Shown here in pieces: positions 310 through 41,218 of a stretch of 64,000 nucleotides of DNA. The position numbers were made by a program, and so were the translations under genes. Source of the DNA: Streptomyces sp. NBC_01335 (GTDB taxonomy: Bacteria; Actinomycetota; Actinomycetes; Streptomycetales; Streptomycetaceae); contig NZ_CP108370.1 in assembly GCF_035953295.1 (NCBI RefSeq), positions 1,674,001 through 1,738,000 of the forward strand, in the 5' to 3' direction. Under the pieces are notes generated by a model, which was not told where the DNA came from, searched no databases, and saw only the letters and a list, made by a program, of their open reading frames with translations. Position 1 is the first letter of the stretch. Every line of letters starts with the position of its first letter.

Positions 310-1920
310 CTACCGGTGCGAGAACCAGCTCGCCGCCGGGAGCAGCTTGTCGTTGTAGTCGAAGAGCGCCTGGTTCTCCCAGGCGTTGCCGGAGGAGGCG
401 TCGGCCGGGTCCCAGCCGCTGCCGGTGACGGCGGTCCAGGTGGGTTCCCAGTAGACGGCACCGAGGCCCCGGCCGCCGGGGACGGCTTCGACGACGTTGA
501 GTACGTCGCGGAGGTTGGCGGCCTGGCCAGCGGGGGTGGCGGGGTAGCCGGTGACGAGCTGGTCGGCGGTGGCGATGTTGTTCTCCAGGCCGTCCTTGTC
601 GGCGAGGGTGTGGGCGTAGGCGGTCTCGGCGACGAGGACCGGTTTGCCGTAGCGGGAGGCGGCGTCGTCCAGGTTGGTCTGGAGGTCGGAGAGGGCGCCG
701 TGCCAGTAGCCGTAGTACGAGAGGGCGATGACGTCGAACGGGACGCCGTGGGCGACGGCGTTGTCGAACCACCAGCGGGTTCCGGCGTTGTCGCCGCCCT
801 TGGCGAGGTGCAGGGCGACCTTCGTGCCGGAGGAGACGGCCTTGGCGGCGTTGGCGCCGGAGGTGAGGAGTCCGGCGAGCTGGGACCAGTTGTCGGTGGA
901 GCCCTCGGGCCAGAGCATTCCGGCGTTGATCTCGTTGCCGATCTGGACCATGTCGGCGGTGGTGCCCTGCGCCTTGAGGGCGTTGAGCACGTCGTAGGTG
1001 TGGTTGTAGACGTCGGTCTTCAGCTGGGTGTAGCTGTGGCCGGCCCAGGCGGCGGGCTTGGTCTGCTTGCCGGGGTCGGCCCAGGCGTCGGAGTAGTGGA
1101 AGTCGACGAGGACCTTCATGCCGAGCGCCTTGGCGCGTTTGGCCATGGCGAGGACGTGGGCCTTGTCGTTGTAGCCGTCCGCCGGGTTCACCCACACCTT
1201 GAGGCGTACGTAGTTCATTCCGGCGGAGTGCAGCAGGGTCATGGCGTCGCCGGTGGTGCCGCTCGCGTTGCGGTATACAGCGCCGTGGGCCTCGTTCTTG
1301 GGGAGGGTGGAGAGGTCGCCGCCCTTGACGCTGAGACCGGTGGTGCCCGAGGTGAAGGCGATGTCGTCGAAGTTGGCCCATTCTCCGGCGTGCGCGTCGG
1401 AGTTGAGGCTGATGGTGCAGGCGCCGCCGGTGACCTTGACCGAGGTCACCAGGCGTATCCAGGCGCCGTTGGCGGTGGGCGGGAGGTCGGTGCGCTGTTC
1501 GGCGGAGCCGCAGTTGCGCAGGGCGATGTAGGCGGAGTTCTGGCCGCCGCTGGAGCGGACCCACGCGCTGAGGGTGTACGTGCCGTCGGTCAGCCCGGAG
1601 AGGTACTGGTACGTCTCCACCTTGTAGGCGGAGGCCGACCAGTGGCTGAGCCGGGTGCTGCCCGCGTGACCGCCGGCCTCGGTGAAGGAGGCGGCGGTCT
1701 GGCCGCCGGCGGAGTAGGCGGTCCAGCCGGTGGCGCCCGATTCGAAGCCGGGGTTGGTGACGGTGGCCGCCGCGTGGGCGGCCTGGGCGGGGAGCCCGGC
1801 GAGCATCAGCCCGCCGAGGGCCGTGAGCGCGGCGGCGGCCCGGCGGCTGCCGCGCGGGGTGCGGCGGGCCGCCGCTCCCGGTTCGTCCTTCGTCCTGCCG
1901 AACAGCGTCTTTCCGTACAT
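310..1920 (-). CDS. Secreted GH53 endo-beta-1,4-galactanase with N-terminal carbohydrate-binding domain
   Basis: The 536-residue product should cut the beta-1,4-galactan side chains of rhamnogalacturonan-I outside the cell. Residues 1-51 are a signal peptide (twin Arg-rich n-region, then ALTALGGLMLAGLPAQAAHA). Residues about 52-185 form a CBM-like beta-sandwich beginning NPGFESGATGW. The GH53 barrel follows from about 190. The acid/base Glu is in QIGNEINAGM (about 326) and the nucleophile Glu in VLVAETAYAH (about 431); VDFHYSDAWADPGKQ is also typical of GH53. The frame stays open far upstream, but the ATG at 1918-1920 is chosen because it starts the signal peptide and has GAAGGGA about 11 bases before it. 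It lies 85 bases behind the GH42 gene on the same strand, so the two are probably cotranscribed: galactanase outside, beta-galactosidase inside. Confidence 0.93.
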   Translation of the reverse strand: MYGKTLFGRTKDEPGAAARRTPRGSRRAAAALTALGGLMLAGLPAQAAHAAATVTNPGFESGATGWTAYSAGGQTAASFTEAGGHAGSTRLSHWSASAYKVETYQYLSGLTDGTYTLSAWVRSSGGQNSAYIALRNCGSAEQRTDLPPTANGAWIRLVTSVKVTGGACTISLNSDAHAGEWANFDDIAFTSGTTGLSVKGGDLSTLPKNEAHGAVYRNASGTTGDAMTLLHSAGMNYVRLKVWVNPADGYNDKAHVLAMAKRAKALGMKVLVDFHYSDAWADPGKQTKPAAWAGHSYTQLKTDVYNHTYDVLNALKAQGTTADMVQIGNEINAGMLWPEGSTDNWSQLAGLLTSGANAAKAVSSGTKVALHLAKGGDNAGTRWWFDNAVAHGVPFDVIALSYYGYWHGALSDLQTNLDDAASRYGKPVLVAETAYAHTLADKDGLENNIATADQLVTGYPATPAGQAANLRDVLNVVEAVPGGRGLGAVYWEPTWTAVTGSGWDPADASSGNAWENQALFDYNDKLLPAASWFSHR

Positions 1921-2005
1921 CGTCGTCGATGTCCCTTCGACCGTCGTGCGGGATACGGGGGTGGTGCGGGTGGTACGTGGGGGGCTGGTGGTGCGGTGGT
2001 GCGCC

Positions 2006-7555: not shown

Positions 7556-8608
7556 ATGAGCCGCACTGAACCTCCCCCGCCCTCCGGGCAGCCCGGAAGG
7601 GGACGCCGCCGGCCGCCGACGATCCACGACGTGGCCCGCGAGGCGGGGGTGTCGCGCGGGACCGTCTCCCGGGTGCTGAACGGCGGCCACAACGTCAGCC
7701 CGGCCGCCCTCGAAGCGGTCAACTCGGCCATCCGCAAGACCGGTTACACCGTCAACCGGCACGCCCGGTCGCTGATCACCGGCCGCTCCGACTCGGTGGC
7801 GTTCCTGCTGACGGAGCCCCAGGAGCGGTTCTTCGAGGACCCCAACTTCAATGTGCTGCTGCGGGGTTGTACGAGCGCGCTGGCCGCGCACGACGTACCG
7901 CTGCTGCTGATGATCGCGGGTACGGAGGCCGAGCGGCGCCGGAACATGCGGTACATCGCGGGGCACGTGGACGGCGTGCTGCTGGTCTCCAGCCACTCGG
8001 GAGACCCGGTGGTCGCCCAGCTCCACGAGGCCGGCGTACCGGTGGTGACCTGCGGCAAGCCTCTCGGGCAGGGCTCGAAGGTCAGCTATGTGGCGGCCGA
8101 CGACCGGGACGGCGCCCGGGACATGGTGCGTTACCTGTACGAGTCGGGGCGCCGCCGGATCGGTACGGTCAGCGGCCCTCTGGACACCCCGGGCGGTGTG
8201 GAGCGGCTCGCCGGCTACCGCGAGACGCTCGCCGAGTGCGGGCTGCCCGTGGACGAGGACCTGATCGTCCCGGGCGACTACAGCCGGGCCGGCGGCGAGG
8301 CCGCCGGGACCCTGCTGCTGGAGCGCGCCCCCGACCTGGACGCGGTCTTCGTCGCGTCCGACCTGATGGCGCAGGGCGTGCTGACCTCGCTGGAACGGGC
8401 CGGGCGGCGGGTCCCCGAGGACATCGCGGTCGGCGGTTTCGACGACTCCCCGGCCGCGCTCGACTCCCGCCCGGCGCTGACCACCATCCGGCAGCCCTGG
8501 GACCGCATCAGCGCCGAGATGGTACGGGTGCTGCTGGCCCAGATCGGCGGCGAGGACCCGGCGGCGGTGATCCTCCCCACCGAGCTGGTGCGGCGGGAGT
8601 CGGCGTAG
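7556..8608 (+). CDS. LacI-family transcriptional regulator of the galactan module
   Basis: A 350-residue repressor. Residues about 20-45 carry the LacI helix-turn-helix (DVAREAGVSRGTVSRVLNG) followed by the hinge helix. The rest is the two-lobed periplasmic-binding-like sugar sensor with DAVFVASDLMAQGVL and VGGFDDSPAA, typical of the family. It follows the permeases after 69 bases and is most likely in the same operon. The predicted operator CTGTGAACGCTCACAG at 4285-4300, upstream of the binding-protein gene, is the probable target, giving induction by galactose or galacto-oligosaccharides. It ends facing the class V aminotransferase gene, with 29 bases between them. Confidence 0.92.
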   Translation: MSRTEPPPPSGQPGRGRRRPPTIHDVAREAGVSRGTVSRVLNGGHNVSPAALEAVNSAIRKTGYTVNRHARSLITGRSDSVAFLLTEPQERFFEDPNFNVLLRGCTSALAAHDVPLLLMIAGTEAERRRNMRYIAGHVDGVLLVSSHSGDPVVAQLHEAGVPVVTCGKPLGQGSKVSYVAADDRDGARDMVRYLYESGRRRIGTVSGPLDTPGGVERLAGYRETLAECGLPVDEDLIVPGDYSRAGGEAAGTLLLERAPDLDAVFVASDLMAQGVLTSLERAGRRVPEDIAVGGFDDSPAALDSRPALTTIRQPWDRISAEMVRVLLAQIGGEDPAAVILPTELVRRESA

Positions 8609-13622: not shown

Positions 13623-14234
13623 TCAGCTGCCGTCGCGCAGGTCGGCGACGCCCTCCGTACGGAACGCGATCTCGTCGAACGACGCCTCGCAGCCGTCGCC
13701 GACGGGCGCCTGGACGAGGAAGCCGACCGAGGCGGAGGCCGTGCCCTCCGGGTCGCCGAGGGCGAAGACCCGGACGAAGGTCCAGGTGACGCCGTCGGGC
13801 GAGGCGTGGAAGGCGAAGGCGCCGCCGTTGCGGGTGAGGCGGAGCCAGAAGGTGTCGCCGTCCACGGTGAAGGAGTTGACGTCGTCGGAGACGCCCCGGG
13901 TGACCACCGTGCAGATGGTGGGGACGGCGGGCGAGAGTTCCAGGCAGAGCTTCGCCCAGTCGCGCTCCCCGACGTGCAGGTAGAGGACGCCCGCGTCGTA
14001 GGCGCCGGCGAAGCCGACCTTGACCCGGGCGAGCAGCTGGAAGTCACCGGCGGGCGCGGTGCCCAGCAGGCGCGGTGCGTCGCTCGTCGGTTCGAGGGAG
14101 TCGCCGCCGGGCGGTACGAAGCGGTCCTGCCGGGCACCCGCGCGGCCGGTCAGTACGCCGTCCTCGTAGGTCCACTTGCCCTCGGGTCCGAACGGCTCCA
14201 GCTCGAAGGGGAGTTCGGGAAGTCGCAGAGTCAT
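13623..14234 (-). CDS. DUF1349 beta-sandwich protein
   Basis: A 203-residue protein without signal peptide. DUF1349 proteins are concanavalin-like beta-sandwiches; typical stretches here are DFQLLARVKVGFAGAYDAGVLYLHVGE, broken by strands such as AKLCLELSPA and SPDGVTWTFVRVFAL and ending with an EASFDEIAFR strand. The fold resembles the lectin-like domain found in some GH43 enzymes, so a sugar-related role is plausible but unproven. It is transcribed 5 bases behind the aldehyde dehydrogenase gene and is surely in the same operon, which is divergent from an IclR regulator. Confidence 0.82.
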   Translation of the reverse strand: MTLRLPELPFELEPFGPEGKWTYEDGVLTGRAGARQDRFVPPGGDSLEPTSDAPRLLGTAPAGDFQLLARVKVGFAGAYDAGVLYLHVGERDWAKLCLELSPAVPTICTVVTRGVSDDVNSFTVDGDTFWLRLTRNGGAFAFHASPDGVTWTFVRVFALGDPEGTASASVGFLVQAPVGDGCEASFDEIAFRTEGVADLRDGS

Positions 14235-15860: not shown

Positions 15861-15897
15861 GCAAGAAGTCACAGGCAAGAAGTCACAGCGAAGTCAC
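15861..15897. repeat. Tandem 14-bp direct repeat in the IclR leader
   Basis: GCAAGAAGTCACAG occurs twice back to back (15861-15874, 15875-15888) followed by a third partial copy CGAAGTCAC (15889-15897). It ends 35 bases before the chosen IclR start and could be a binding array or a slippage product. Confidence 0.75.
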
Positions 15898-15931
15898 GGG
15901 ATTTCGAAGAAGTATGGAAGGGGCGAGGGCG

Positions 15932-16702
15932 ATGTCGGCTGCCGAGTCTGGTGGGGCGCAGGTCAAGTCCGCGGTACGGACGGTGGAGCTCCTCGAATAC
16001 TTCGCGGGGCGCCCCGGAATGCACTCCCTCGCCGCCGTGCAGGAGGCGGTGGGCTACCCCAAGTCCAGTCTCTACATGCTGCTGCGCACCCTCGTCGAGC
16101 TCGGCTGGGTGGAGACCGACGCCACCGGCACCCGGTACGGCATCGGGGTGCGCGCCCTGCTGGTCGGCACCTCGTACATCGACGGCGACGAGGTGGTGGC
16201 GGCGGCCCGCCCCACCCTCGACCGGCTCTCCGACGACACCACGGAGACCATCCACCTGGCCAGGCTCGACGGTACCAACGTGGTGTACCTCGCGACCAGG
16301 CAGTCCCAGCACTACCTGCGCCCCTTCACCCGCGTCGGCCGCCGGCTGCCCGCCCACTCCACCTCGCTGGGCAAGGCGCTGCTGGCCACCCACAGCGACG
16401 AGCAGGTGCGCAAGATGCTCCCCGAGACGCTCCCGGCGCTGACCGAGCACACCCTGACCGACCGCGAGCAGCTCATCGAGGAACTGCACACCATCCGTGA
16501 GCAGGGGTACGCGGTGGACCGCGAGGAGAACACGCTGGGGCTGCGCTGCTTCGGCGTGGCGATCCCCTACCGGACGCCCTCGCGCGACGCCATCAGCTGC
16601 TCGGTGCCGGTCGCCCGGCTCACCCCCGCCCACGAGCAGACGGTGAAGGACGCGCTCTTCGACGCCCGCGACCGGCTGACGCTGGCGACCCGCCGCCTCT
16701 GA
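15932..16702 (+). CDS. IclR-family transcriptional regulator
   Basis: A 256-residue regulator. The winged helix is at about 14-75 (SAVRTVELLEYFAGRPG, then VGYPKSSLYMLLRTLVELGWV) and the GAF-like IclR effector domain follows at 80-250 with RLPAHSTSLGKALLA and GYAVDREENTLGLRCF. It is divergent from the alpha-ketoglutarate semialdehyde dehydrogenase operon and probably controls it in response to a sugar acid or keto acid. The frame is open to 15821, but the ATG at 15932 has GGGCGAGGGCG ahead of it and begins the conserved region; an ATG at 15914 is an alternative. Confidence 0.9.
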   Translation: MSAAESGGAQVKSAVRTVELLEYFAGRPGMHSLAAVQEAVGYPKSSLYMLLRTLVELGWVETDATGTRYGIGVRALLVGTSYIDGDEVVAAARPTLDRLSDDTTETIHLARLDGTNVVYLATRQSQHYLRPFTRVGRRLPAHSTSLGKALLATHSDEQVRKMLPETLPALTEHTLTDREQLIEELHTIREQGYAVDREENTLGLRCFGVAIPYRTPSRDAISCSVPVARLTPAHEQTVKDALFDARDRLTLATRRL

Positions 16703-24975: not shown

Positions 24976-26310
24976 TCAGCCGTTGCCCAGTTCCTTCCAC
25001 TCCTTCTGGGCGGCGTTCAGCTCCTTGGCGATCTTGTCCAGGAAGTCCTTCGCGGAGACCTTGCCGAGCAGCAGCTTCTGGAACTCCGGCTCGTTGTCGG
25101 CCTTGCTGATGTTGTTCCAGTCGGGCAGGTAGTAGGGCAGGTTCACGATCTTGGTGGAGCCGTCGGTGAGGGCCTTGGCCGCGAGCGCGGTCGGCTCGGA
25201 GGCGGTGATCCACGGGTCCTGCGCGGCCTCGGTGTTGGCGGGGATGGCGCCGGCCGACTCGTTCCACTTGCTGTTGGAGGCGTGCGAGGCGGCGAACTCG
25301 ATGAACTTCCAGGCGGCGGTCTTGTTCTTGCTGCTGCGGAAGAGGCCGAGTCCGTCGACCGGGTTGGAGACCTGGACGCGGGTGCCGCTGTCACCGATCG
25401 GGTTCGGGATGCCGGCGAACTTGTCCGCGCCGAGCGCCTTCACGTGGTCCTGATAGGAACCGAGGTTGTGGCTGAGCATCCCGATGGTGCCGGTGTCCCA
25501 CTGCGCGACCATCTTGGTGAAGTCGTTGTTGACGTCGGCGGACGGCGTCGCCTTCTTGAACAGGCCGACGTACTTCTCCAGCGCGGCGACGTTCTTCGGG
25601 TCGTTGACCGTCGTCGTGTCGCCGTTCCAGAAGTCCGTGATGCCGGACTGGCCGTAGGCGGCGTCCAGGGCCTGGGCGATGGAGCCCGCCCCGCCCCGGA
25701 TGGTGTAGCCGAACTTGTTGTTCTTGGAGTCGGTCAGCTTGTCGGCCGCGTCGTAGAACTTCGCCCAGGTGGAGGGGGCTTCCAGCCCCGCGGCCTGGAA
25801 CAGGTCGGTTCTGTACCAGAGGGTTCCGTTGTTCGCGGAGGTCGGCACGGAGTACATGTCGTCGCCCCGGCCGCCGGCGTCCTTGACGCTCGCCACCATG
25901 CCCTCGACGAGCTTGCCCTTGAGCGAGGACTCCTCGATCCGGTCCTGGACCGGCTCCAGCGCCTCCTGGGAGACGATGTTGGCGAGGTAGGCGGTGCCCA
26001 CGCCGCCCACGTCCGGCAGGCCGCCGCCGGCGATCGCGGTGTCGTACTTGGACTGCACGTCGGCGATCGGGATCGGGACGTACTTGACCTTGATGTCCGG
26101 GTTCTCCTTCTCGAAATCCTTGATGATCTCGGTCCAGATGGCGGTGCGCGGGCCGCCGTTGTTGTCCCAGAAGGTGATCTCGCCCTTGCCGCTGCCCTCG
26201 GTGCCGGAGCCGCTGCCGTCGTCGCCGCAGGCGGTGGCCGTCAGGGCGAGCATCGCGGTCAGCGAGACCGCTGCCGCGGCGCGCCCCCGGTACTTCTTGG
26301 AAATGGTCAT
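24976..26310 (-). CDS. Sugar ABC transporter substrate-binding lipoprotein without adjacent permeases
   Basis: A 444-residue extracellular solute-binding protein. The lipobox is in LTATACGDDG (Cys about 28); the mature fold starts ITFWDNNGGPRTAIW and includes YSVPTSANNGTLWYRTDLF, typical of cluster-B sugar binders. It sits between a pectate lyase-pectinesterase gene and an acetylesterase gene, so its ligand is probably an oligogalacturonide or rhamnogalacturonan fragment. No permease gene is next to it. The permease pair at 32176-34010 on the same strand has no binding protein of its own and is the best partner. GAAGAGC precedes the ATG by 7 bases. Confidence 0.92.
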   Translation of the reverse strand: MTISKKYRGRAAAAVSLTAMLALTATACGDDGSGSGTEGSGKGEITFWDNNGGPRTAIWTEIIKDFEKENPDIKVKYVPIPIADVQSKYDTAIAGGGLPDVGGVGTAYLANIVSQEALEPVQDRIEESSLKGKLVEGMVASVKDAGGRGDDMYSVPTSANNGTLWYRTDLFQAAGLEAPSTWAKFYDAADKLTDSKNNKFGYTIRGGAGSIAQALDAAYGQSGITDFWNGDTTTVNDPKNVAALEKYVGLFKKATPSADVNNDFTKMVAQWDTGTIGMLSHNLGSYQDHVKALGADKFAGIPNPIGDSGTRVQVSNPVDGLGLFRSSKNKTAAWKFIEFAASHASNSKWNESAGAIPANTEAAQDPWITASEPTALAAKALTDGSTKIVNLPYYLPDWNNISKADNEPEFQKLLLGKVSAKDFLDKIAKELNAAQKEWKELGNG

Positions 26311-28646: not shown

Positions 28647-30188
28647 TCAGGCGGGCGGCGTGGGGGTCCCGAAGGCGGTGAACTCGGCGGTGCCCGCGGG
28701 GCCCGTACCGGCGGGGGCGGTGGCGAAGAGGCCGAGCAGTGCGCCGACCCAGCGCCACGGTTCGGCTGCGAAGACCTGGCCGGAGGCGCGGAAGCCGTCC
28801 CCGGTGTCGGCGTGGAAGCGGCAGCGGGCTCCGGCGCTCACCTCGACGCGGAGCCGGACCCGCCCCTCGGGCGCGGGGCGGCCCGGTGCGGCGTCCCGTT
28901 CGTGTTCGGCGACGCTCTCGGCGTACCGGTGCACGAGCGAGACCGAACCGTCCTCACCGCGTTCGAGGCCGATCCAGCTGAACGCGTCGCCGAGTACGGC
29001 GAGTCCGGCCTTGGCTCCGGGTACCTCGCTGCCGAGGGCGAGCTCCACCTCCACGGTGAACTCCTCGGCGGGCAGCCGCTGCACGAGTACGTTCGCCAGG
29101 GTCCGCAGGTCGTGCGCGTGCGGGGTGCGGACGCAGGCGAGGCGCAGTCCGTCCCCGGCGTGCTCGACGGTCCAGCCGGCCCGCGGGTTGGCGGTCCACT
29201 GCCACTGCCGGCCGTAGCGGCCTCCGGGGAAGCCGTCGGCGAACGCCGGTGCACCCACGGGCTGTTGGGGCGCGATCGGCTTGGCGTGCGTGAGGACGGG
29301 TTCGCCCTCGTCGCCGAGGACCGGCCAGCCCTCCTCGTCCCAGCGCATCGGCTGGAGGTGGACGACCCTGCCGTACGCGCCCCGCTCCTGGAAGTGCAGG
29401 AACCAGTCCTCGCCCGCCGGGGTGCGGACCCAGCCGCCCTGGTGGGGGCCGTTGACGGCGGTGCGGCCCTGGGCCAGGACGACGCGTTCCTCGTACGGGC
29501 CGAAGAAGTCCTTCGACCGGAACGCGCCCTGCCAGCCCGTGGTCACCCCGCCGGCCGGGGCGAGGATCCAGAACTCGCCCTCGTGCCGGTAGACCTTGGG
29601 GCCCTCCAGGGTGAACCAGCCGGGGATCAGGTCCCCGTCGATCAACGTCGCCCCCTCGTCGAGGAGTTCGCGGCCGTCGGCGCTCATCCGGTGGCCGGTC
29701 AGCCGGTTCTTGATCCCGGAGCGGGATTTCGCCCAGGCGTGCACGAGGTAGGCCTCGCCGGTCTCCTCGTCCCAGAGCGGGCAGGCGTCGATCAGGCCCT
29801 TGCCCGCCTTCACCAGGTGCGGAGCGCTCCACGGGCCGCGTACGTCCTCGGCGTTGATCTGCTGGATGCCGTGGTCGGGGTCGCCCCAGAAGATCCAGAA
29901 CCGGCCCGCGTGGTGGCGGATCGAGGGTGCCCAGACGCCACGGTCGTGGCGCGGAGCCGCGAAGTCGGCGGCCGGTTCCAGGGTGTCGAGGGCGTGTCCG
30001 ATCAGGGACCAGTTGACCAGGTCCCGGGAGTGCAGCAGCGGCAGTCCGGGGGCGCGGCCGAAGCTGGACGCGGTGAGGTAGTAGTCGTCGCCGACGCGCA
30101 CCAGGTCCGGGTCGGACCAGTCGGCGTTGAGCACGGGGTTGCGGTAGGTGCCGTCGCCGAGGTCGGCGGTCCAGGGCCTCGGGCTCAT
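28647..30188 (-). CDS. GH43-family glycosidase with C-terminal beta-sandwich
   Basis: A 513-residue intracellular enzyme (no signal peptide). The five-bladed propeller has the GH43 acidic triad: general base Asp in NADWSDPDLVRVGDDYYL, the modulating Asp near LIDACPLWDEETGEAYLVHA, and general acid Glu in FTLEGPKVYRHEGEFW. The C-terminal 190 residues are a lectin-like sandwich of the GH43_C2/DUF1349 type. The family holds alpha-L-arabinofuranosidases, arabinanases and beta-xylosidases; the pectin context favours arabinan or arabinogalactan oligomers taken up by the adjacent permeases, but xylose compounds cannot be excluded. Its ATG overlaps the DUF6807 gene stop (ATGA). Confidence 0.9.
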   Translation of the reverse strand: MSPRPWTADLGDGTYRNPVLNADWSDPDLVRVGDDYYLTASSFGRAPGLPLLHSRDLVNWSLIGHALDTLEPAADFAAPRHDRGVWAPSIRHHAGRFWIFWGDPDHGIQQINAEDVRGPWSAPHLVKAGKGLIDACPLWDEETGEAYLVHAWAKSRSGIKNRLTGHRMSADGRELLDEGATLIDGDLIPGWFTLEGPKVYRHEGEFWILAPAGGVTTGWQGAFRSKDFFGPYEERVVLAQGRTAVNGPHQGGWVRTPAGEDWFLHFQERGAYGRVVHLQPMRWDEEGWPVLGDEGEPVLTHAKPIAPQQPVGAPAFADGFPGGRYGRQWQWTANPRAGWTVEHAGDGLRLACVRTPHAHDLRTLANVLVQRLPAEEFTVEVELALGSEVPGAKAGLAVLGDAFSWIGLERGEDGSVSLVHRYAESVAEHERDAAPGRPAPEGRVRLRVEVSAGARCRFHADTGDGFRASGQVFAAEPWRWVGALLGLFATAPAGTGPAGTAEFTAFGTPTPPA

Positions 30189-31012
30189 GCCGTCACCACC
30201 TTGCGGACGAGGGCCGCCGCCTCGTCGCGGCCGAGCGTCCCGTCCGCGACGACGGTCACGACCCGCCGTACGACGGTCGCGCCGGGCGCCACCGGCAGCC
30301 GGTCCTCGGCCGCGAGGGAGGAGCCGACGCCCGGGTACTCCGCGGTGCGGACGAACCACGGGTCGCGCCGGGTCTCCCCGGTCGCCCCGGCGAAGACGAG
30401 GGTCCAGCTGTCGCCGGCGAGGGCCAGCCAGTCGGCCCGGGCGCCGTGCACCGCCGCCTCGCCCTCGAGGGTGGCGCTGAACACCTCGGGTGCCCGCTCC
30501 TCCTTGGGGGCCCGCCAGAAGAAGCCGCCGTACCCGGCGCCGGGGCGGCCGTTGGTGGCGGGGCTGCCGATGGACAGGGCGGTGCGGCTGCGGTTGGTGA
30601 GGGAGAAGGAGAAGTCCAGCGCCCAGGCGGTGTCGGTCAGCGGGACGACGGCCACCGTGCGGTGCTCGCGCAGCAGTTCGGCGCCGCCGGCCTCCCAGCC
30701 GAGCTCCTCCACGAAGCCGTCCGGGTCGCGGAGCTTCCACCCGAGGTGGCGCTGCACCCCGTGGTTGTCGAGGACGGTGGGGCCCTGGCCGCGGACGAAG
30801 GTGCGCCCGCCCCAGAAGTTGTACCCGGCGACGTCGGGCACGGCGACCGAGGCGCCGAGGTGGTGCAGGTGGTCGGCGGGGCGCTCCTCGGTGACGGGGG
30901 TTCCCCCGAGGGTGGTGACGGGGTGCAGGTAGGGGCGGCCGTCGTGGACGTCGGGGTGGTAGCCGTAGCGGCCCACGGGGCGGCCCGCACAGCTGAGGCG
31001 CAGCGTGGTCAC
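30185..31012 (-). CDS. DUF6807 (PmoA-like) family protein
   Basis: A 275-residue protein with no signal peptide. It matches the DUF6807/PmoA-like family through YHPDVHDGRPYLHPVTTLGG, RPADHLHHLGASVAV, GYNFWGGRTFV and ATNGRPGAGYGGFFWRAP. The name comes from a loose link to methane oxygenase subunits, but these proteins are found in sugar operons and are probably beta-sandwich proteins with a carbohydrate-related job; no reaction is established. Start is GTG at 31010-31012, overlapping the Gfo/Idh stop as GTGA, and its own stop overlaps the GH43 ATG. The tight coupling on both sides argues that it works stoichiometrically with these two proteins. Confidence 0.82.
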   Translation of the reverse strand: MTTLRLSCAGRPVGRYGYHPDVHDGRPYLHPVTTLGGTPVTEERPADHLHHLGASVAVPDVAGYNFWGGRTFVRGQGPTVLDNHGVQRHLGWKLRDPDGFVEELGWEAGGAELLREHRTVAVVPLTDTAWALDFSFSLTNRSRTALSIGSPATNGRPGAGYGGFFWRAPKEERAPEVFSATLEGEAAVHGARADWLALAGDSWTLVFAGATGETRRDPWFVRTAEYPGVGSSLAAEDRLPVAPGATVVRRVVTVVADGTLGRDEAAALVRKVVTA

Positions 31013-32169: not shown

Positions 32170-32175
32170 CGCGGG

Positions 32176-34139: not shown

Positions 34140-35867
34140 TCAGCCGGCGTACGGGTCGGGTACGTCGCCCTCGCGGGCCAGGAAGGCGAAGTCGCAGCCG
34201 GTGTCGGCCTGCGTGATCTGGTCCTGGTACAGCGCGCCGTAGCCGCGGCCGTACCGGGCGGGCGGCGGGGTCCAGGCGGCGCGGCGGCGCTCCAGTTCCT
34301 CGTCGTCGATGTCGAGACTGAGGCGGCGGGCCGCCACGTCCAGGGTGATGGGGTCGCCGGTGCGGACGAGGGCGAGCGGGCCGCCGACGAACGACTCGGG
34401 CGCGATGTGCAGCACGCAGGCCCCGTAACTCGTGCCGCTCATCCGGGCGTCGGAGATCCGCACCATGTCGCGCACCCCCTGCTTCAGCAGGTAGTCCGGG
34501 ATCGGCAGCATGCCGTACTCGGGCATCCCGGGGCCGCCCTTGGGGCCGGCGTTGCGGAGCACCAGCACATGGTCCGGGGTGATGGCCAGGGCCGGGTCGT
34601 TGATGGTGCGCTGCATCTCCCGGTAGTCGTCGAAGACGACGGCGGGGCCGGTGTGGCGGAGCAGGTGCTGTTCGGCGGCGATGTGCTTGATGACCGCGCC
34701 GTCCGGGCAGAGGTTGCCGCGGAGCACCGCGACCCCGCCTTCGTCGGCGAGCGGCTTGTCGCGGTCCCGGATGACGTCGTCGTCGTGGACGAGCGCCCCG
34801 TCGAGCTGTTCGCGCAGGGTGTCGTGGGTGACGGTGGGCCGGTCCAGGTGGAGGACGTCGGTGAGCCGGGAGAGGAAGCCGGGGAGCCCGCCCGCGAAGT
34901 GGAAGTCCTCCATGAGGTACTTGCCGCCGGGACGGAGGTTGGCGAGCACCGGCACGGTGCGGGCGATGCGGTCGAAGTCGTCGAGGGAGAGCTTGATGCC
35001 GGAGCGGCCGGCCATCGCGATGAGGTGGATGACGGCGTTGGTGGAGCCGCCGAGCGCGAGGACGGTGGCGACGGCGTCCTCGTACGCCTCCGGGGTGAGG
35101 ATCTGCGACAACGTTCGTTGCTGCCACACCAGTTCGACGATACGGAGACCGGACTGCGCGGCCATCCGGTCGTGGCCGGAGTCGACGGCGGGGATCGAGG
35201 AGGCGCCCGGGACGGTGACGCCCAGCGCCTCGGCGGCGGCCGTCAGGGTGGAGGCGGTGCCCATCGTCATGCAGTGGCCCGGGGAGCGGGCGAGCCCGTT
35301 CTCCAGTTCGGCCATCTCGCAGTCGCCGATGATGCCGGCCCGCTTGTCGTCCCAGTACTTCCACATGTCGGTGCCGGAGCCCAGGACTTCGTTGCGCCAG
35401 TGGCCCGGCAGCATCGGTCCGGCCGGTACGAAGACGGCCGGCAGGTCGACGGAGGCCGCGCCCATCAGCAGCGCGGGCGTCGACTTGTCACAGCCGCCCA
35501 TCAGCACGGCCCCGTCGACCGGGTAGGAGCGCAGCAGCTCCTCGGTCTCCATGGCGAGCATGTTGCGGTAGAGCATCGGGGTCGGCTTCTGGAACGTCTC
35601 CGACAGCGTGGAGACGGGGAATTCGAGCGGGAAGCCGCCCGCCTGCCACACCCCGCGCTTGACGGCCTGCGCCCGGTCGCGGAGGTGGACGTGGCAGGGG
35701 TTGATGTCGGACCAGGTGTTGAGGATCGCGATCACCGGCTTGCCGAGGTGCTCCTCGGGGAGGTAACCCAGCTGCCGGGTGCGCGCCTTGTGGCTGAACG
35801 AGCGGAGTCCGTCGGTGCCGTACCACTGGTGGCTGCGGAGCTCCTCGGGAGCGATGCGGGTGCTCAC
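34140..35867 (-). CDS. IlvD/Edd-family sugar-acid dehydratase, probably L-arabinonate-type
   Basis: A 575-residue Fe-S dehydratase. Cluster cysteines are in MGGCDKSTPALLMG and SPGHCMTMGTAST with an early one in DINPCHVHLRD; the C-terminal ARMSGTSYGACVLHIAPE is conserved in the family. The N-terminus HQWYGTDGLRSFSHKART and the neighbours point to the sugar-acid branch (L-arabinonate, xylonate, galactonate) rather than branched-chain amino-acid IlvD. The product would be a 2-keto-3-deoxy acid handed to the DapA-family enzyme encoded by the overlapping upstream gene. Start is GTG (35865-35867) overlapping the DapA stop as GTGA. Substrate assignment is inference from context. Confidence 0.85.
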   Translation of the reverse strand: MSTRIAPEELRSHQWYGTDGLRSFSHKARTRQLGYLPEEHLGKPVIAILNTWSDINPCHVHLRDRAQAVKRGVWQAGGFPLEFPVSTLSETFQKPTPMLYRNMLAMETEELLRSYPVDGAVLMGGCDKSTPALLMGAASVDLPAVFVPAGPMLPGHWRNEVLGSGTDMWKYWDDKRAGIIGDCEMAELENGLARSPGHCMTMGTASTLTAAAEALGVTVPGASSIPAVDSGHDRMAAQSGLRIVELVWQQRTLSQILTPEAYEDAVATVLALGGSTNAVIHLIAMAGRSGIKLSLDDFDRIARTVPVLANLRPGGKYLMEDFHFAGGLPGFLSRLTDVLHLDRPTVTHDTLREQLDGALVHDDDVIRDRDKPLADEGGVAVLRGNLCPDGAVIKHIAAEQHLLRHTGPAVVFDDYREMQRTINDPALAITPDHVLVLRNAGPKGGPGMPEYGMLPIPDYLLKQGVRDMVRISDARMSGTSYGACVLHIAPESFVGGPLALVRTGDPITLDVAARRLSLDIDDEELERRRAAWTPPPARYGRGYGALYQDQITQADTGCDFAFLAREGDVPDPYAG

Positions 35868-36766
35868 ACGGACCACCCGGCGATCTGGTCGGCGACCTCG
35901 GCGCGCTGCGCCTCGGGCAGGACCCGGCTGGGGGCGCGGACGTCGCGGCGGCAGAGGCCGAGGACCGCGAGCGCCTCCTTGACGACGGTGACGTTGTTGG
36001 CGGACTGCCGGTCGGCGCGCAGCTCCTCGAAGCGGCGGATGCGCTCCCAGATCTTCATGGCGGCGGCGTAGTCGCCGGCCCGCAGCGCCTCCAGCATGCC
36101 GAGCGAGACGGCGGGGGCGACGTTGACGAGGCCGGAGGTGAAGCCGGTGGCGCCGGTGGCGAAGTACGAGGGGGCGTACAGCTCGGCGAGGCCGGCGATC
36201 CACACGAACCGGTCCAGTCCCGCGTCCCGGGCGAAGGCGCCGAAGCGGGCGGCGTCCGGTACGGCGTACTTGACGCCGATCACGTTGGGGCAGTGGTCGG
36301 CGAGTTCGGCGAGCTTCTCACCGGCGAGCAGCGGGTTGCGGATGTACGGGACGACCCCGAGCTCCGGAACGGCCTCGGCGATCGCGCGGTGGTAGTCGAC
36401 CCAGCCGTCCTGGGAGACGTACGGGTGGACCGGCTGGTGCACCATGACCAGTTCGGCACCCGCGTCCCGGGCGTGCTCGGCGGCGGCGACGGCGGTGGGC
36501 ACGTCGTGCCCGACGCCCACCAGGACGGTGGCCCGGCCTCTCACCTCGTCGATGGTCAGCTCGGTGACGGCCCGCCGCTCCTTCGGGGTGAGCGCGTAGA
36601 ACTCCCCGGTGTTTCCGTTGGGCGTGACGATGCGGACGCCGCCGTCGAGGAGCCGCCGCAGCAGCGCCCGGTGGGTGTCCTTGTCGATCGTCCCGTCCTC
36701 CGCGAACGGGGTCACGGGGATCGCCACGACGTCGGCGAGGGCCGCCTTGAGCGGGATGAGGTCCAT
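35864..36766 (-). CDS. DapA-family dehydratase/aldolase of 2-keto-3-deoxy sugar acids
   Basis: A 300-residue TIM-barrel Schiff-base enzyme. The Schiff-base Lys is in IGVKYAVPDA, the Tyr in VVPYIRNPLL, and the substrate carboxylate loop is NGNTGEFYAL in place of the GTTGE of true DapA. Sitting in an operon with an IlvD-type sugar-acid dehydratase, it is likely an L-2-keto-3-deoxyarabonate dehydratase (giving alpha-ketoglutarate semialdehyde, used by the dehydrogenase at 14240) or a KDG-type aldolase. ATG 36764-36766 is chosen with AAAGG upstream; a GTG at 36794-36796 overlapping the GntR stop (GTGA) would add ten residues. Confidence 0.85.
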   Translation of the reverse strand: MDLIPLKAALADVVAIPVTPFAEDGTIDKDTHRALLRRLLDGGVRIVTPNGNTGEFYALTPKERRAVTELTIDEVRGRATVLVGVGHDVPTAVAAAEHARDAGAELVMVHQPVHPYVSQDGWVDYHRAIAEAVPELGVVPYIRNPLLAGEKLAELADHCPNVIGVKYAVPDAARFGAFARDAGLDRFVWIAGLAELYAPSYFATGATGFTSGLVNVAPAVSLGMLEALRAGDYAAAMKIWERIRRFEELRADRQSANNVTVVKEALAVLGLCRRDVRAPSRVLPEAQRAEVADQIAGWSV

Positions 36767-36792
36767 GCCAACTGGCCTTTCGTCGATGTGGT

Positions 36793-37458
36793 TCACGCCT
36801 GACCGCCCTTGTCGGCGGCGACGGTGCCGTCGGGGAAGGCGCGGCGCACGAACGACGCGATGTGTTCGTGGAGAGCGGCCGCCGCGCCCGCGGCGTCCGC
36901 GCCGAGCGCGAGCCGCAGGATCTCCCGGTGCTCGGCCGCCTCGTGCTCCCAGGACGGGTTGCTCGCCCAGGCCACGGTGGAGACGAGCGCCGCCTGGTCG
37001 CGGACCTCGTCGAGCATCCGGCCCAGCAGCGGGTTGCCGCACGGCAGGTACAGGGCGCGGTGGAAGTCCCGGTTGGCGAGGGAGCGTTCGGCCTTGTCGG
37101 GTGCCGAGTCGGCACGCTCCAGGGCCTCTTGGGCCGCGTCGAGAGAGGCTCCGCAGGTGATCGTGCGGCGCAGCGCCTCGGGTTCGAGCAGCAGCCGTAC
37201 GTCGTAGATCTCGCGCGCCATCTCGGCGTCCACGAGCCGGACGGTGGCGCCCTTGTACTGGCTCATGACCACCAGGCCGGTGCCGGCGAGCGTCTTCAGC
37301 GCCTCGCGTACCGGCGTCTTCGACACCCCGAACCGCGCGGCGAGTTCGGTCTCCACGAGCGCCTGCCCCGGCTGGAGCCGGGCCGTCAGGATCGCGTGCT
37401 TGATCGCCTCCAGCACGAACTGCGTCCTGGACGGGATCGGGGTGGGCGCAAAAGTCAT
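36793..37458 (-). CDS. GntR/FadR-family transcriptional regulator
   Basis: A 221-residue regulator. The winged helix-turn-helix is at about 15-70 (VLEAIKHAILTARLQPGQAL, ETELAARFGVSKTPVREAL), followed by the all-helical FCD ligand domain (YDVRLLLEPEALRR, NRDFHRALYLPCGNPLL, AEHREILRLALGADAAG with metal-type His residues). It heads the sugar-acid operon and probably regulates it, relieved by a sugar acid or 2-keto-3-deoxy acid. The ATG at 37456-37458 has GAGAG ahead of it; an ATG at 37471-37473 would add five residues. Operator-like palindromes lie just upstream. Confidence 0.9.
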   Translation of the reverse strand: MTFAPTPIPSRTQFVLEAIKHAILTARLQPGQALVETELAARFGVSKTPVREALKTLAGTGLVVMSQYKGATVRLVDAEMAREIYDVRLLLEPEALRRTITCGASLDAAQEALERADSAPDKAERSLANRDFHRALYLPCGNPLLGRMLDEVRDQAALVSTVAWASNPSWEHEAAEHREILRLALGADAAGAAAALHEHIASFVRRAFPDGTVAADKGGQA

Positions 37459-37994: not shown

Positions 37995-39197
37995 TCATCC
38001 GGCGATGCGGCCCAGGGCGCCGGAGACGGCCGCGAGGTCGGAGTCGGAGGCCAGTCCGGCGTGGTAGAGCCGGAGTTCGGTGGCGCCCAGGGACGCGGCG
38101 TGGGCGGCGTCGCGCTCCAGCGTGGCGGGGCTGCCGCCCATGCCGGAGACCACGCCGAAGTTGGCGGCGAGCACGCCCCGGTGGTCCGCGAAGGGTCCGA
38201 GGACCGCCTCGCGGGCGGTGTCGCCGCCGGTGCACGGCAGCACCACGCCGTCGGCGACGGAGAGGATGTGCCCGGGGTCGACGCCGACGTTGGCGCCGGT
38301 CCGGTGGAACGCCGGGTCCGCGTGCAGCAGGACCTGGAAGCCCTCCCCGTGCCCCTCTCCGGCCGCCGCCCCGGCCGCGGCCTCCCGTACGGCGGCGACG
38401 GCGGCCTCCTGGAGGCCGTGGGCGACCTCACGGCGCCATCCGAGGGTGGCCGCCGCCGTCTCGGCGCCGAGCAGCTCCGCCACTCCCGCCCAGCCGGCCG
38501 CGGGTTCGGCCCCCGTCCAGACGGGTTCCAGCGCGCGGCGCACGGCGGCGCGCAGCCCGTCCGGGTCGAGCCCGTGCCGGGCGTACCCGGCAGCGCATTC
38601 GGCGCAGAAGCAGAGCGACATAAGGTACTGGGCCGCCTCGCCGAGCGTCACCCCCTGGACCTTGTCGTGGCCGTGCAGGTGCGCGAAGCCGTACCAGCCG
38701 CACGACTCCAGCTCGGTGCCGCGCGCGCCGGGCCGGGCGGCCGCCTCGGCGGCCAGGTCGACGAGGTGGGCACGGACCTCGGGCCGGGCGATGCACGGGG
38801 CCCACGGATAGCGGTCCCCGTAGGCGTTGACCACGGACGTCCCGGGGAACTCCTCGCCGAGGCGGGAGTTGTGCGCGAGGACGACCCAGCTGTGCACCTC
38901 CAGACCGGCGTCGGCGAGCGCTTCGGCGGCGGCGGCCCAAGGGTCCTCGCCCGGGGTCCAGTTCTGCCTCCTGGGCGCCAACTCCCGCCCCGCCCACCGC
39001 TTCTCGTCCGGCGGGTAGAGCACCGCCGCGTACGAGGCGGTGACGATCCGGGTCGCGGGGTGACGCGGGGTGAGCGCCCGGGTGGAGTGGTACGCCGAGG
39101 CGAGGGTCACCTGATGGACGCCGAGTCCCGCGATGCGGGCGGCGGCGTCCGGGTCGCCGACGACGTCCCAGGGGTAGAGGAACGCCGAGGACTTCAC
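37995..39197 (-). CDS. Unknown TIM-barrel/glycosidase-like protein coupled to KdgD
   Basis: A 400-residue cytoplasmic protein I cannot place in a characterised family. Early strands (AFLYPWDVVGDPDAAARIAGLGVHQVTLAS) and later ones (LEVHSWVVLAHNSRLG, FQVLLHADPAF, GVLAANFGVVSGM) alternate with helices as in a beta/alpha barrel. Around residue 195 it has LMSLCFCAECAAGYARHGLD; the CxCxxC cluster is like the metal cluster of GH42 (CYCDNC in the GH42 here), which suggests a distant glycosidase-like ancestry. Start is GTG (39195-39197), overlapping the KdgD stop as GTGA, so it is translated together with a uronate-pathway enzyme. It may supply a missing step such as lactone opening or release of galacturonate from an oligomer; this is speculation. 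Confidence 0.75.
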   Translation of the reverse strand: MKSSAFLYPWDVVGDPDAAARIAGLGVHQVTLASAYHSTRALTPRHPATRIVTASYAAVLYPPDEKRWAGRELAPRRQNWTPGEDPWAAAAEALADAGLEVHSWVVLAHNSRLGEEFPGTSVVNAYGDRYPWAPCIARPEVRAHLVDLAAEAAARPGARGTELESCGWYGFAHLHGHDKVQGVTLGEAAQYLMSLCFCAECAAGYARHGLDPDGLRAAVRRALEPVWTGAEPAAGWAGVAELLGAETAAATLGWRREVAHGLQEAAVAAVREAAAGAAAGEGHGEGFQVLLHADPAFHRTGANVGVDPGHILSVADGVVLPCTGGDTAREAVLGPFADHRGVLAANFGVVSGMGGSPATLERDAAHAASLGATELRLYHAGLASDSDLAAVSGALGRIAG

Positions 39198-40153
39198 GCC
39201 CCGCCTCCCACGGCTCGCTCCGCCAGCAGGGCCCGGCCGTCGTCGATGATCTGGGCGAGCTCCTTGACGTGCGCGGCGGGCGGTTCGGTGAGCGGGGTGC
39301 GCACCTCGCCGACGTCGAGCCCCTGGAGCCGTACGGCGGCCTTGACCAGGGAGACGGCGTAGCCGCGCCCCTTGGCGCGCAGTTCGACCAGCGGCCGGTA
39401 GAACCGGTCCAGCAGGGCGTCGGCGAACGCGTCGTCGCCCGATGCGAGCGCGCGGTAGAAGGCGAGCGCGATGTCGGGGGCGAAGGCGAAGACGGCGGAG
39501 GAGTAGAGCGTGACCCCGATGCCCCGGTAGGCGAGACCGGTGAGTTCGGCGGTGGGCAGCCCGTTGAAGTACAGGAAGTCGCCGCCGGGCAGCGCGGTGC
39601 GGACGGCGCTGACGATGCGCTGCATCAGGTCCAGGTCGCCGACCCCGTCCTTGAGGCCGATGATGCCGGGCGTACGGGCCAGGGCGACGACGGTCTCGGG
39701 GGTGAAGACGGCGTTGTCGCGCTGGTAGACGATCGTCTCCAGGCTCGTCGCCGCGGCCAGCGCGGTGTAGTGCGCGAGCAGCCCCCGCTGGTCGGCGACG
39801 ACGAGGTACGGGGGCATGGCGAGGAGCCCGTCCGCACCGGCCGCCTCGGCGAGCTTGGCGTACTCCACCGCCAGGGCGGTGCCGTAGCCGGCCCCGGCGA
39901 CGACGGGTACCTGTCCGGCGGTCTCCTCGACCGCCGCGGCGACGACCCGCCCGAACTCGGCGGGGGTCAGCGCGTGGAACTCGCCGGTGCCGCAGCAGGC
40001 GAAGACCGCCGCCGCGCCGGCGTCGATGCCCGCCCGGACGTGACGGCGGAACGCGGCGAGGTCCACGTCCCCGTCCGGGCCGTACGCGGTGACGGGGAAG
40101 AAGAGCGGCCCGGCGACTGCGGTGAGCCGGGCGGCGAGGGGGGCTGAGGTCAC
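39194..40153 (-). CDS. kdgD: 5-dehydro-4-deoxyglucarate dehydratase (KdgD)
   Basis: A 319-residue DapA-family enzyme that dehydrates and decarboxylates 5-keto-4-deoxyglucarate to alpha-ketoglutarate semialdehyde. Diagnostic blocks are LFFPVTAYGPDG, CCGTGEFHAL, LLAMPPYLV, the Tyr in VYQRDNAVF, the Schiff-base Lys in IGLKDGVGD, FNGLPTAEL, TLYSSAVFAFAP and GYAVSLVKAA. These distinguish KdgD from DapA and from the second DapA-like protein at 35864. GTG 40151-40153 is the start (GGGAG 6 bases upstream, residues VTSAPLAARL); the longer frame above it runs through the promoter. It is divergent from uronate dehydrogenase, which feeds the same pathway, and overlaps the unknown gene downstream. Confidence 0.92.
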   Translation of the reverse strand: MTSAPLAARLTAVAGPLFFPVTAYGPDGDVDLAAFRRHVRAGIDAGAAAVFACCGTGEFHALTPAEFGRVVAAAVEETAGQVPVVAGAGYGTALAVEYAKLAEAAGADGLLAMPPYLVVADQRGLLAHYTALAAATSLETIVYQRDNAVFTPETVVALARTPGIIGLKDGVGDLDLMQRIVSAVRTALPGGDFLYFNGLPTAELTGLAYRGIGVTLYSSAVFAFAPDIALAFYRALASGDDAFADALLDRFYRPLVELRAKGRGYAVSLVKAAVRLQGLDVGEVRTPLTEPPAAHVKELAQIIDDGRALLAERAVGGGA

Positions 40154-40399
40154 GGGCGCTCCCTGAGCGAGTTCCGGGCGTACACAATTCTGATTGATGT
40201 CCATATTCATGAACGACGTCACGCTAAGGCAGTTTCCCGGGGGCGGTCAAGGCGGAAACCGTGACGGTCGAAGCGAGTTCGACGCGCCCCTCACCCCTTG
40301 ACGCGCACCGCCACCCCTCCCTACGTTGTCCACGCATGTGAATATCGTCCATGAATCTGGCGTGTCGCGGTGCACTCCCCGCCGCGCCGAGGAGGCCCA
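40154..40399. promoter_or_regulatory. Divergent kdgD/udh control region
   Basis: For udh (plus strand) TTGACG (40298-40303) and TACGTT (40322-40327) form a promoter with 18-bp spacing. Operator-like words flank both start regions: palindrome TTCATGAA (40206-40213) near the kdgD side and TCCATGAA (40348-40355) downstream of the udh -10. A TGAATAT word occurs on opposite strands at both sites (ATGAATATG on the minus strand near 40203-40211, TGTGAATATCG at 40337-40347). A common regulator for both genes is likely; which one is unknown. Confidence 0.55.
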
Positions 40400-41218
40400 G
40401 TGCCCGGTTTGCCCGCTCCCCGCACGATTCTGCTCACCGGAGCCGCCGGCGGTCTCGGCACGCTGATGCGCGAGCTGCTCCCGGCGTACGGATACGAGCT
40501 GCGCCTCTTCGACCTCGTGCCGATCGAGGGCGAGCCGGACGCGATCGTGGCCGACCTGGCCGACCGGGAGGCGCTGCGCGAAGCCGTACGCGGCGTCGAC
40601 GCGATCATCCACCTCGCCGGCATCTCACTGGAAGCCTCCTTCGACAAGATCCTGCGCGCCAACGTCGAGGGCACGTACAACCTGTACGAGGCGGCCCGCG
40701 AGGAGGGCGTGCGCCGGATCGTGTTCGCCTCCTCCAACCACGCGATCGGCTGGACCCCCGCCCCGGCGGCCGGTGAGCCGCTCATCGGTGTCGACACGCC
40801 CCGGCGTCCCGACACCTTCTACGGCCTCTCCAAGTCCTTCGGCGAGGACCTGGCCCAGCTCTACCAGGACAAGCACGGCGTCGAGACCGTCTCGGTCCGC
40901 ATCGGCTCCTGCTTCCGCGAGCCGACGTCGGTGCGGATGCTCTCGGTCTGGATGAGCCCCGAGGACGGCGCCCGCCTCTTCCACGCGGCGCTCACCGCCC
41001 CGGACGTCGCCCACACGGTGGTCTACGGCTCCTCCGCCAACACCCGGCTGTGGTGGGACCTGTCGACCGCCCGGGCGCTCGGGTACGAGCCGGAGGACGA
41101 CTCGGAGCGGTTCGCGGAGAAGCTGGTCGCCGAGTTCGGCGAGCTGGACCCGGCCGACCCGGCCCAGACGCACGTCGGCGGCCCCTTCGTCACCGACCCG
41201 CCGATCTGGCCGTACTGA
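40400..41218 (+). CDS. udh: Uronate dehydrogenase
   Basis: A 272-residue extended short-chain dehydrogenase. It carries the NAD motif TGAAGGLG, IIHLAGISLEASFDKILRAN, RIVFASSNHAIGW, the catalytic YxxxK in FYGLSKSFGE, VRIGSC, and a C-terminal WWDLS block; this series is characteristic of bacterial uronate dehydrogenases. It oxidises D-galacturonate or D-glucuronate to the aldarolactone, the first step of the oxidative pectin pathway ending in alpha-ketoglutarate. GTG at 40400 has AGGAGG 4 bases before it and is preferred over an earlier in-frame GTG. It is divergent from kdgD, the later step of the same pathway, and ends with a hairpin at 41253. Confidence 0.9.
   Translation: MPGLPAPRTILLTGAAGGLGTLMRELLPAYGYELRLFDLVPIEGEPDAIVADLADREALREAVRGVDAIIHLAGISLEASFDKILRANVEGTYNLYEAAREEGVRRIVFASSNHAIGWTPAPAAGEPLIGVDTPRRPDTFYGLSKSFGEDLAQLYQDKHGVETVSVRIGSCFREPTSVRMLSVWMSPEDGARLFHAALTAPDVAHTVVYGSSANTRLWWDLSTARALGYEPEDDSERFAEKLVAEFGELDPADPAQTHVGGPFVTDPPIWPY

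Follow-up and report, generated by a model that had tools for sequence, protein, structure and literature searches.

The oxidative hexuronate pathway of Agrobacterium tumefaciens proceeds through uronate dehydrogenase (Udh), galactarolactone cycloisomerase, 5-keto-4-deoxyglucarate dehydratase (KdgD) and alpha-ketoglutarate semialdehyde (KGSA) dehydrogenase, in this order. We analysed a 64,000 nt stretch of high-GC DNA from Streptomyces sp. NBC_01335 (contig NZ_CP108370.1, positions 1,674,001 to 1,738,000; the whole stretch is called the window), in which genes for Udh and KdgD are accompanied by an orphan gene with a predicted glycosidase-like fold. Genes were called by a simple composition script and named from Pfam and NCBIfam. 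The carbohydrate genes occupy about 29.5 of 41 kb and are split over four modules:

310-8608: module A, with GH53, GH42, importer and LacI genes
13623-16702: module B, with DUF1349, aldehyde dehydrogenase (ALDH) and IclR genes
22594-37473: module C, with PL1, GDSL, substrate-binding protein (SBP), PL1-CE8, GH43, DUF6807, Gfo/Idh, two permease, IlvD, DapA-type and GntR genes
37995-41218: module D, with the orphan, KdgD and Udh genes

It is about evenly balanced whether this four-module neighbourhood converts pectin uronate to alpha-ketoglutarate with the orphan acting as an unclassified cytoplasmic glycosidase. The genes and operator-like sites of module D are:

37995..39197, minus strand: orphan, 400 aa, predicted unclassified glycosidase-like TIM barrel, between the GntR and KdgD genes, 4-nt overlap with kdgD
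39194..40222, minus strand: KdgD, 5-keto-4-deoxyglucarate dehydratase, start probably at 40153; PRK03620 with 427 bits over 278, 4ur7 at E 1e-64
40199-40214 and 40328-40343: two copies of the operator-like RTYCAYNNNNRTGRAY in the udh-kdgD gap
40370..41218, plus strand: Udh, uronate dehydrogenase, start probably at 40400; solved uronate dehydrogenases at E 2e-76 to 6e-66

The name Udh was given because solved uronate dehydrogenase structures matched; the best NCBIfam model was that of a glucose-6-phosphate dehydrogenase (Azf; 154 of 400 bits), and no Udh model was listed. KdgD matched 4ur7, a solved keto-deoxy-galactarate dehydratase, and stayed under the cut-off of the stricter model TIGR03249 (323 bits, cut-off 374). 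Together with the linkage to the ALDH, these matches supported the oxidative uronate route of an earlier annotation of the same DNA (the original prediction), which leads from Udh through a dehydratase and KdgD to KGSA and the ALDH. Neither an aldarolactone cycloisomerase nor an aldarate dehydratase that could act between Udh and KdgD was found among the window genes scanned, and GarD/UxaA gave no match in the whole genome. Two glucarate-dehydratase-like enolase genes are present elsewhere in the genome, both under the equivalog cut-off. One of the two, at locus L139 (G000 C1:7821484-7823591), adjoins a second KdgD homologue (57%), with a sodium:solute symporter gene also beside that homologue.

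In a phylum-wide set of 296 genomes the orphan had matches in 17, of which 7 belonged to the same genus (its own genome included), 5 were about 30% identical (in two other families, f16 and f18) and 5 were marginal. For the genus we used 121 Streptomyces genomes and took the best match per genome for pairings. The orphan matched in 91 of them at E 0.001, in some as fragments, split or with stops. Both orphan and Udh (E 1e-60) were present in 90 genomes, the orphan alone in 1 (G322, at a contig edge), Udh alone in 9 and neither in 21. Of the 88 pairs on one contig, 87 had the two genes at most 3 kb apart, and all of these were divergent; in G305, the one exception, the homologues are no more than 46-47% identical. 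KdgD at E 1e-60 (90 genomes) accompanied the orphan in 86, with the orphan only in 5, KdgD only in 4 and neither in 26. When paralogue-like matches of about 57% identity or less were dropped, the 82 genomes with orthologue-level KdgD gave 81 with both, 10 with the orphan only, 1 with KdgD only and 29 with neither. All 83 same-contig pairs of orphan and KdgD were at most 3 kb apart, a count that comes from the 86-genome KdgD set at mixed thresholds, which leaves out G371, G378, G391 and G401 but includes some matches of similar or lower strength.

We also compared the loci of relatives, represented by the best 80 of 523 confirmed orphan homologues, all from Streptomyces, with up to 10 kb on each side and some of them short. 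Labels were obtained for KdgD in 78 loci, for the orphan in 75 and for Udh in 73, some genes being uncalled or off short contigs. Of the 73 loci in which both KdgD and the orphan were called, 63 had their ORFs overlapping by 4 nt. The orphan is still found beside Udh where KdgD is not, as in L149 (66%) and, with 35-42% homologues, in L146 and L147. Second orphan copies (about 40% identical) occur in G349 and G310 (L144, L145) beside LacI-like and 2-hydroxyacid dehydrogenase genes, at L145 also with an ABC importer and an enolase-family gene. Beside Udh, 18-19 of the 80 relatives have a further importer (DeoR, SBP, two permeases and a zinc alcohol dehydrogenase-like gene), which is absent from the window; it sits between Udh and TerD in L104, L112, L114, L117 and others, and also in L018-L020.

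The orphan protein had no Pfam or NCBIfam match. Loose scans of 14 orphan members gave GHL10 in one (E 0.023), GHL6 in one (0.28) and a chance-like match in two; PF02449 (GH42) did not match any of the 14 at E up to 1. A PDB search with the single sequence returned one match, to an aminopeptidase (E 0.013), and with the profile the best match was Cwp19 (E 0.0065). The AlphaFold2 (AF2) model (pLDDT 85.9, pTM 0.89) was a TIM barrel with fold matches of the glycoside hydrolase (GH) type. VIA-align and Foldseek gave no uronidase among the matches listed, which is no evidence either way. Across the 14 sequences, which go down to 24% identity with that of the window, 36 alignment columns were invariant, including a cysteine cluster (C135, C196, C198 and C201) and E164, which lies at the end of predicted strand 4.

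With moderate confidence we take the orphan to be an unclassified cytoplasmic glycosidase that feeds uronate to Udh. More tentatively, it may found an unclassified GH family that is related to GH42 via a zinc-cysteine-type site and frees uronate from oligouronides for Udh. From gene families, linkage and conserved operator-like sites, as read from the sequence, we infer the following scheme, in which the activity of the orphan, the substrate of the ALDH, the dehydratase and the arabinonate branch are the conditional parts. Module A would serve galactan use, module B would provide the KGSA dehydrogenase, module C would combine depolymerisation of pectin and arabinan with import and an L-arabinonate-type dehydratase pair, and module D would oxidise uronate. 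The PL1, PL1-CE8, CE12-like and GH53 enzymes would act outside the cell, the two importers would bring oligosaccharides in, and GH42 and GH43 would trim side-chain sugars inside. The orphan, apparently co-translated with KdgD, would most likely be a cytoplasmic glycosidase releasing uronate from the imported oligouronides. Udh would convert this uronate to aldarolactone, an enolase-type dehydratase encoded elsewhere would form 5-keto-4-deoxyglucarate, KdgD would turn it into KGSA, and the module B ALDH would produce alpha-ketoglutarate.

Several observations weigh against this role of the orphan. For Udh of Streptomyces viridochromogenes, PMC4476818 gives kcat/Km values (per s per mM) of 257 for glucuronate and 88 for galacturonate in phosphate, and of 201 and 98 in Tris; since the assayed Streptomyces enzyme prefers glucuronate, the donor may be a glucuronide instead of pectin. 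In nine genomes Udh occurs while the orphan is absent, eight of them without KdgD beside Udh and one (G357, L051) with it, and the route can therefore run without the orphan. The Fisher values for co-occurrence were small in a test that ignores ancestry. PL1 matched in 77 of the 121 genomes (both PL1 and orphan 70, orphan only 21, PL1 only 7, neither 23), so that 21 of the 91 orphan genomes had no PL1 match. In favour of a need for such a glycosidase, GH28 and GH88/GH105 gave no match in the own genome, whereas 3 of 14 control genomes were positive for GH88-type genes and 4 for GH28 in the same searches; PL22, KduI and PL9 were outside the searches, and the GH28 negative applies to this genome rather than to the genus. 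Also in favour, 50 of the 70 genomes with PL1 and orphan had no GH88/GH105 match at all. On the other side, strong GH88/GH105 matches were present in 16 of the 91 orphan genomes versus none of the 30 without the orphan, and the orphan is therefore no simple replacement for these enzymes. In L146 and L147 a GH48 cellulase with CBM2, and no pectinase, is found beside the diverged orphan homologue. Clan-A hydrolases keep their nucleophile on strand 7, where the orphan has no conserved carboxylate (predicted strand, judged by eye); near its strand ends D11, H37, H109, E164 and Y378 are conserved, plus further histidines, and its chemistry could therefore differ. Finally, the hhalign profile match in which C135, C198 and C201 aligned with GH42 cysteines compares a single pair, from alignments that are shallow and gapped at E164.

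The conserved D, H and E near the strand ends could also bind a metal, as would suit an aldarolactone hydrolase or isomerase that acts after Udh and readies the lactone for the dehydratase. That the orphan pairs with Udh in some genomes without adjacent KdgD fits this role, and a lactone step after Udh would be needed even in L150, where a glucarate-dehydratase-type enolase-superfamily gene (typed solely from Pfam and from the resemblance of its N-terminus to L138/L139) lies together with the orphan, Udh and KdgD (56%). However, the fold is nearest to glycosidases and carries the GH42-type cysteine cluster, orphan homologues also occur in sugar-import and amino-sugar-like loci without labelled Udh, and such lactones open spontaneously as well, so that we consider a lactone role unlikely. 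The gene set of L150 led us to reject the orphan as the aldarate dehydratase itself, since a separate gene of this type is present there; the lactone role is unaffected by this.

Cleavage of the imported oligouronides could alternatively be a matter of the Gfo/Idh/MocA and DUF6807 proteins of module C acting via 3-keto chemistry, which would leave the orphan another, minor role. The DUF6807 gene, for a protein with a mutarotase-like carbohydrate fold, directly adjoins the Gfo/Idh gene, and the best solved match of the Gfo/Idh protein was glucuronide-3-dehydrogenase (8tdi, E 3.5e-11). With 45.9 bits over 161 residues, however, this match is weak. Neither an eliminase nor a hydratase family was recognised, and roughly half of the loci with the orphan lacked labelled module C genes (Gfo/Idh labelled in 41 and DUF6807 in 36 of 80). 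We regard this explanation as improbable. Literature searches on DUF6807 (with PMC10971088) and on 3-keto glycoside cleavage (with PMC10628242) gave nothing that assigns these genes. Least probable to us is an ordinary pectin locus with the orphan as a catalytically dead or regulatory TIM-barrel protein. A second catalytic carboxylate was not seen, some Udh-bearing genomes are without the gene and a few carry broken copies (in pieces or with stops), but the invariant columns, with the cysteine cluster and E164 among them, and the overlap of the ORF with kdgD speak against it.

The last step of the proposed glycosidase-to-Udh route is assigned to module B:

13623..14234, minus strand: DUF1349 protein, downstream of the ALDH; PF07081, 139 bits
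14240..15778, minus strand: divergent ALDH, probable KGSA dehydrogenase; PF00171
15792..15807, plus strand: candidate IclR operator GTTCNNNATNNNGAAC, before the ALDH
15869..16702, plus strand: IclR-type regulator; PF01614, PF09339

The ALDH met no curated NCBIfam/equivalog cut-off, and its name comes from context: it is a probable KGSA dehydrogenase because it is linked to the Udh-KdgD block. Its closest solved relatives were 1eyy, a Vibrio enzyme, and 3v4c, an NADP ALDH. Matches at E 1e-150 or better occurred in 108 of the 121 Streptomyces genomes (109 at 1e-60); where ALDH and orphan shared a contig (77 cases), they were at most 60 kb apart in 73. Several relatives without module C at this place have the IclR-ALDH block only a few genes further downstream than the orphan (e.g., L060, L077, L085, L121 and L123), and in three genomes, G305 (L148), G391 and G392, ALDH paralogues were found near KdgD paralogues. 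It thus seems that module C either entered between the orphan and the IclR-ALDH block or was lost in other genomes. As the source of the link between the ALDH and Udh-KdgD it was rejected, many relatives having Udh-KdgD-orphan and IclR-ALDH without module C nearby. In 10 of the 80 relatives' loci a DUF1349 gene was labelled immediately after the ALDH.

Modules C and A carry the depolymerases and importers. Module C comprises:

22594..24051, minus strand: PL1 pectate lyase; PF00544, 178 bits
24027..24851, minus strand: GDSL esterase, CE12-like; PF13472, weak match to pectin acetylesterase PaeY (75 of 1000 bits)
24976..26310, minus strand: SBP of importer 2; PF01547, PF13416
26373..28397, minus strand: PL1-CE8 fusion, pectate lyase and pectin methylesterase; PF00544 and PF01095
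28647..30188, minus strand: GH43, no visible signal peptide; PF04616, 234 bits, solved relatives GH43 xylosidases/arabinofuranosidases
30185..31012, minus strand: DUF6807, mutarotase-like beta-supersandwich (model pLDDT 85.5 and fold matches); PF14100, 239 bits
31009..32169, minus strand: Gfo/Idh/MocA oxidoreductase; PF01408
32176..34061, minus strand: two permeases of importer 2; PF00528 twice
34140..35867, minus strand: IlvD/Edd-type sugar-acid dehydratase, L-arabinonate type; NF009559 with 923 bits versus a cut-off of 882, L-arabinonate dehydratase 9evv at E 1e-181
35864..36796, minus strand: DapA-type lyase, candidate 2-keto-3-deoxy-arabinonate dehydratase; PF00701
36793..37473, minus strand: GntR/FCD regulator; PF00392, PF07729
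37486..37499, minus strand: candidate GntR operator GTCATATATGAGAC, upstream of GntR

Module A comprises:

310..1920, minus strand: GH53 endo-beta-1,4-galactanase, apparently secreted (signal peptide-like N-terminus by eye); PF07745, 432 bits
2006..4039, minus strand: GH42 beta-galactosidase, no signal peptide seen, with a C-x-C-x2-C cluster; PF02449, 506 bits
4345..7486, plus strand: ABC importer 1, SBP and two permeases; PF01547, PF00528 twice
7556..8608, plus strand: LacI-type regulator; PF00356, PF13377

All carbohydrate genes listed in the original prediction were found at the positions given there by Pfam/NCBIfam, and depolymerisation of pectin and galactan with the accompanying importers was supported. 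The DUF1349, DUF6807 and Gfo/Idh/MocA genes, absent from that list, are embedded in the modules. The proposed attack on the backbone of rhamnogalacturonan-I (RG-I) found no backing, because the lyases and esterases are homogalacturonan types and the hydrolases are side-chain enzymes; no gene specific to the RG-I backbone and none of PL4/PL9/PL11/GH28/GH105 type was present among the window genes scanned, PL4/PL9/PL11 being searched in the window and not elsewhere in the genome. Nor are the two importers incomplete, as had been stated: each has an SBP and both permeases. Importers without their own ATPase are usual in Streptomyces, where MsiK is shared. For the L-arabinonate branch, which is plausible from the gene content, the dehydratase assignment held, with the NF009559 cut-off passed, and the DapA-type partner is a candidate, but the sugar dehydrogenase and the lactonase could not be assigned. 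The DapA-type lyase (35864-36796) met no equivalog cut-off, its closest solved relatives 3e96 and 3d0c being named only dihydrodipicolinate synthase; the sole candidate sugar dehydrogenase, the Gfo/Idh protein, matched L-arabinose dehydrogenase 7cgq very weakly (E 1.9e-4); and no lactonase was recognised among the window genes scanned.

The patterns GTTCNNNATNNNGAAC and RTYCAYNNNNRTGRAY were obtained by motif searches on 18 IclR-ALDH gaps and on 21 of 73 udh-kdgD gaps, respectively, and then generalised by eye, and GTCATATATGAGAC was obtained from word counts. Because the patterns came from those same regions, the conservation counts are partly circular: RTYCAYNNNNRTGRAY was present in 60 of 73 udh-kdgD gaps including that of the window (0.12 expected from shuffles), GTTCNNNATNNNGAAC before the ALDH in 18 of 18 IclR-ALDH gaps including that of the window and in none of 73 udh-kdgD gaps, and GTCATATATGAGAC upstream of GntR in 47 of 48 regions, again with that of the window. 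Both copies of RTYCAYNNNNRTGRAY in the 64 kb sit in the udh-kdgD gap (0.06 expected). For GTTCNNNATNNNGAAC the window gave a single exact match plus two sites that differ by one letter, the same IclR-ALDH gap holding one of these two; GTCATATATGAGAC occurred once, exactly, with 0.72 matches expected at up to three mismatches. Modules B, C and D thus carry three different conserved operator-like sites and are therefore probably separate regulons, controlled through candidate operators. A shared regulon for these three modules was rejected, as in the window each exact site occurs only at its own unit and the patterns of B and D are absent from each other's gaps. A scan of 37300-40600 for sigma-70 promoters found none.

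With three such sites and unrelated genes between the modules, the single supercluster of about 40 kb that had been proposed was overstated. No pectin gene was recognisable by Pfam/NCBIfam in 8638-13524, which holds aminotransferase V, DsbA, 2-phosphosulpholactate-phosphatase-like, GNAT and AAA genes, or in 16808-22450, which holds PBP, Rv2525c-like, xanthine/uracil permease and sigma-70 factor genes and one ORF without match; both stretches look unrelated to pectin use. Two large genes beyond the modules (43453-48992), for a subtilase with carboxypeptidase-regulatory-like domains and then an FG-GAP repeat protein, are unrelated to the finding. Scans of the window with Rfam (gathering threshold) and for tRNAs were empty.

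We concluded that the region is a good yet ordinary, conserved Streptomyces neighbourhood for the plant cell wall (pectin). What stands out is a widely conserved orphan tied to uronate-oxidation genes, possibly a new type of sugar-cutting enzyme, the rest of the locus being largely ordinary. The original prediction held for most of what it observed and for about half of its pathway. The orphan was missing from it, and this gene raises the interest of the locus. Streptomyces are major soil decomposers, and here pectate lyases and Udh are present with no GH28/GH88/GH105 matches; a conserved gene in overlap with kdgD, whose product is predicted to fold like a glycosidase, is a concrete candidate for the step from oligouronide to monomer. 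If this is true, many Streptomyces that use pectin or glucuronides would owe to it a saccharification step inside the cell that was missing so far, and a new enzyme family would become available that could help to make aldaric acids and alpha-ketoglutarate from pectin or glucuronides. Literature searches, with subscription papers outside reach, turned up no publication about a pectin cluster or a Udh-KdgD-orphan cluster of Streptomyces, and a search for a new-family oligogalacturonide enzyme gave nothing assigning these genes. The accessible text of a xylan proteomics study of SirexAA-E (PMC12772271) contained no mention of uronate, glucuron- or ketoglutar- terms.

The original prediction had likened the locus to a polysaccharide-utilisation locus without SusC/SusD. 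The absence of this pair among the window genes scanned was confirmed, but it is as expected for a Gram-positive, for which the comparison is uninformative. Module A has the usual gene set of a galactan utilisation cluster (GH53-GH42-ABC-LacI), and nothing notable differs. The locus resembles the non-phosphorylative L-arabinose pathway of the Azospirillum type in its L-arabinonate dehydratase over the cut-off and the adjoining DapA-type partner, and differs from it in that no lactonase was recognised, the sugar dehydrogenase is unassigned and the ALDH is in another operon. It resembles the oxidative hexuronate pathway of A. tumefaciens in the strong matches of Udh and KdgD to solved enzymes and in the linked ALDH, whereas the cycloisomerase or dehydratase is not in the window, the orphan overlaps KdgD and the ALDH lies in a separate IclR unit. 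Unlike GH42-type enzymes, the orphan has a single domain, no Pfam GH42 match and no conserved acid seen on strand 7. It shares with them the C-x-C-x2-C motif, an upstream Cys and a Glu at the strand 4 end, and its predicted fold is that of GH42 beta-galactosidases and of other TIM-barrel glycosidases, namely alpha-L-fucosidase 6tvk, the PgaB C-terminal domain and Cwp19.

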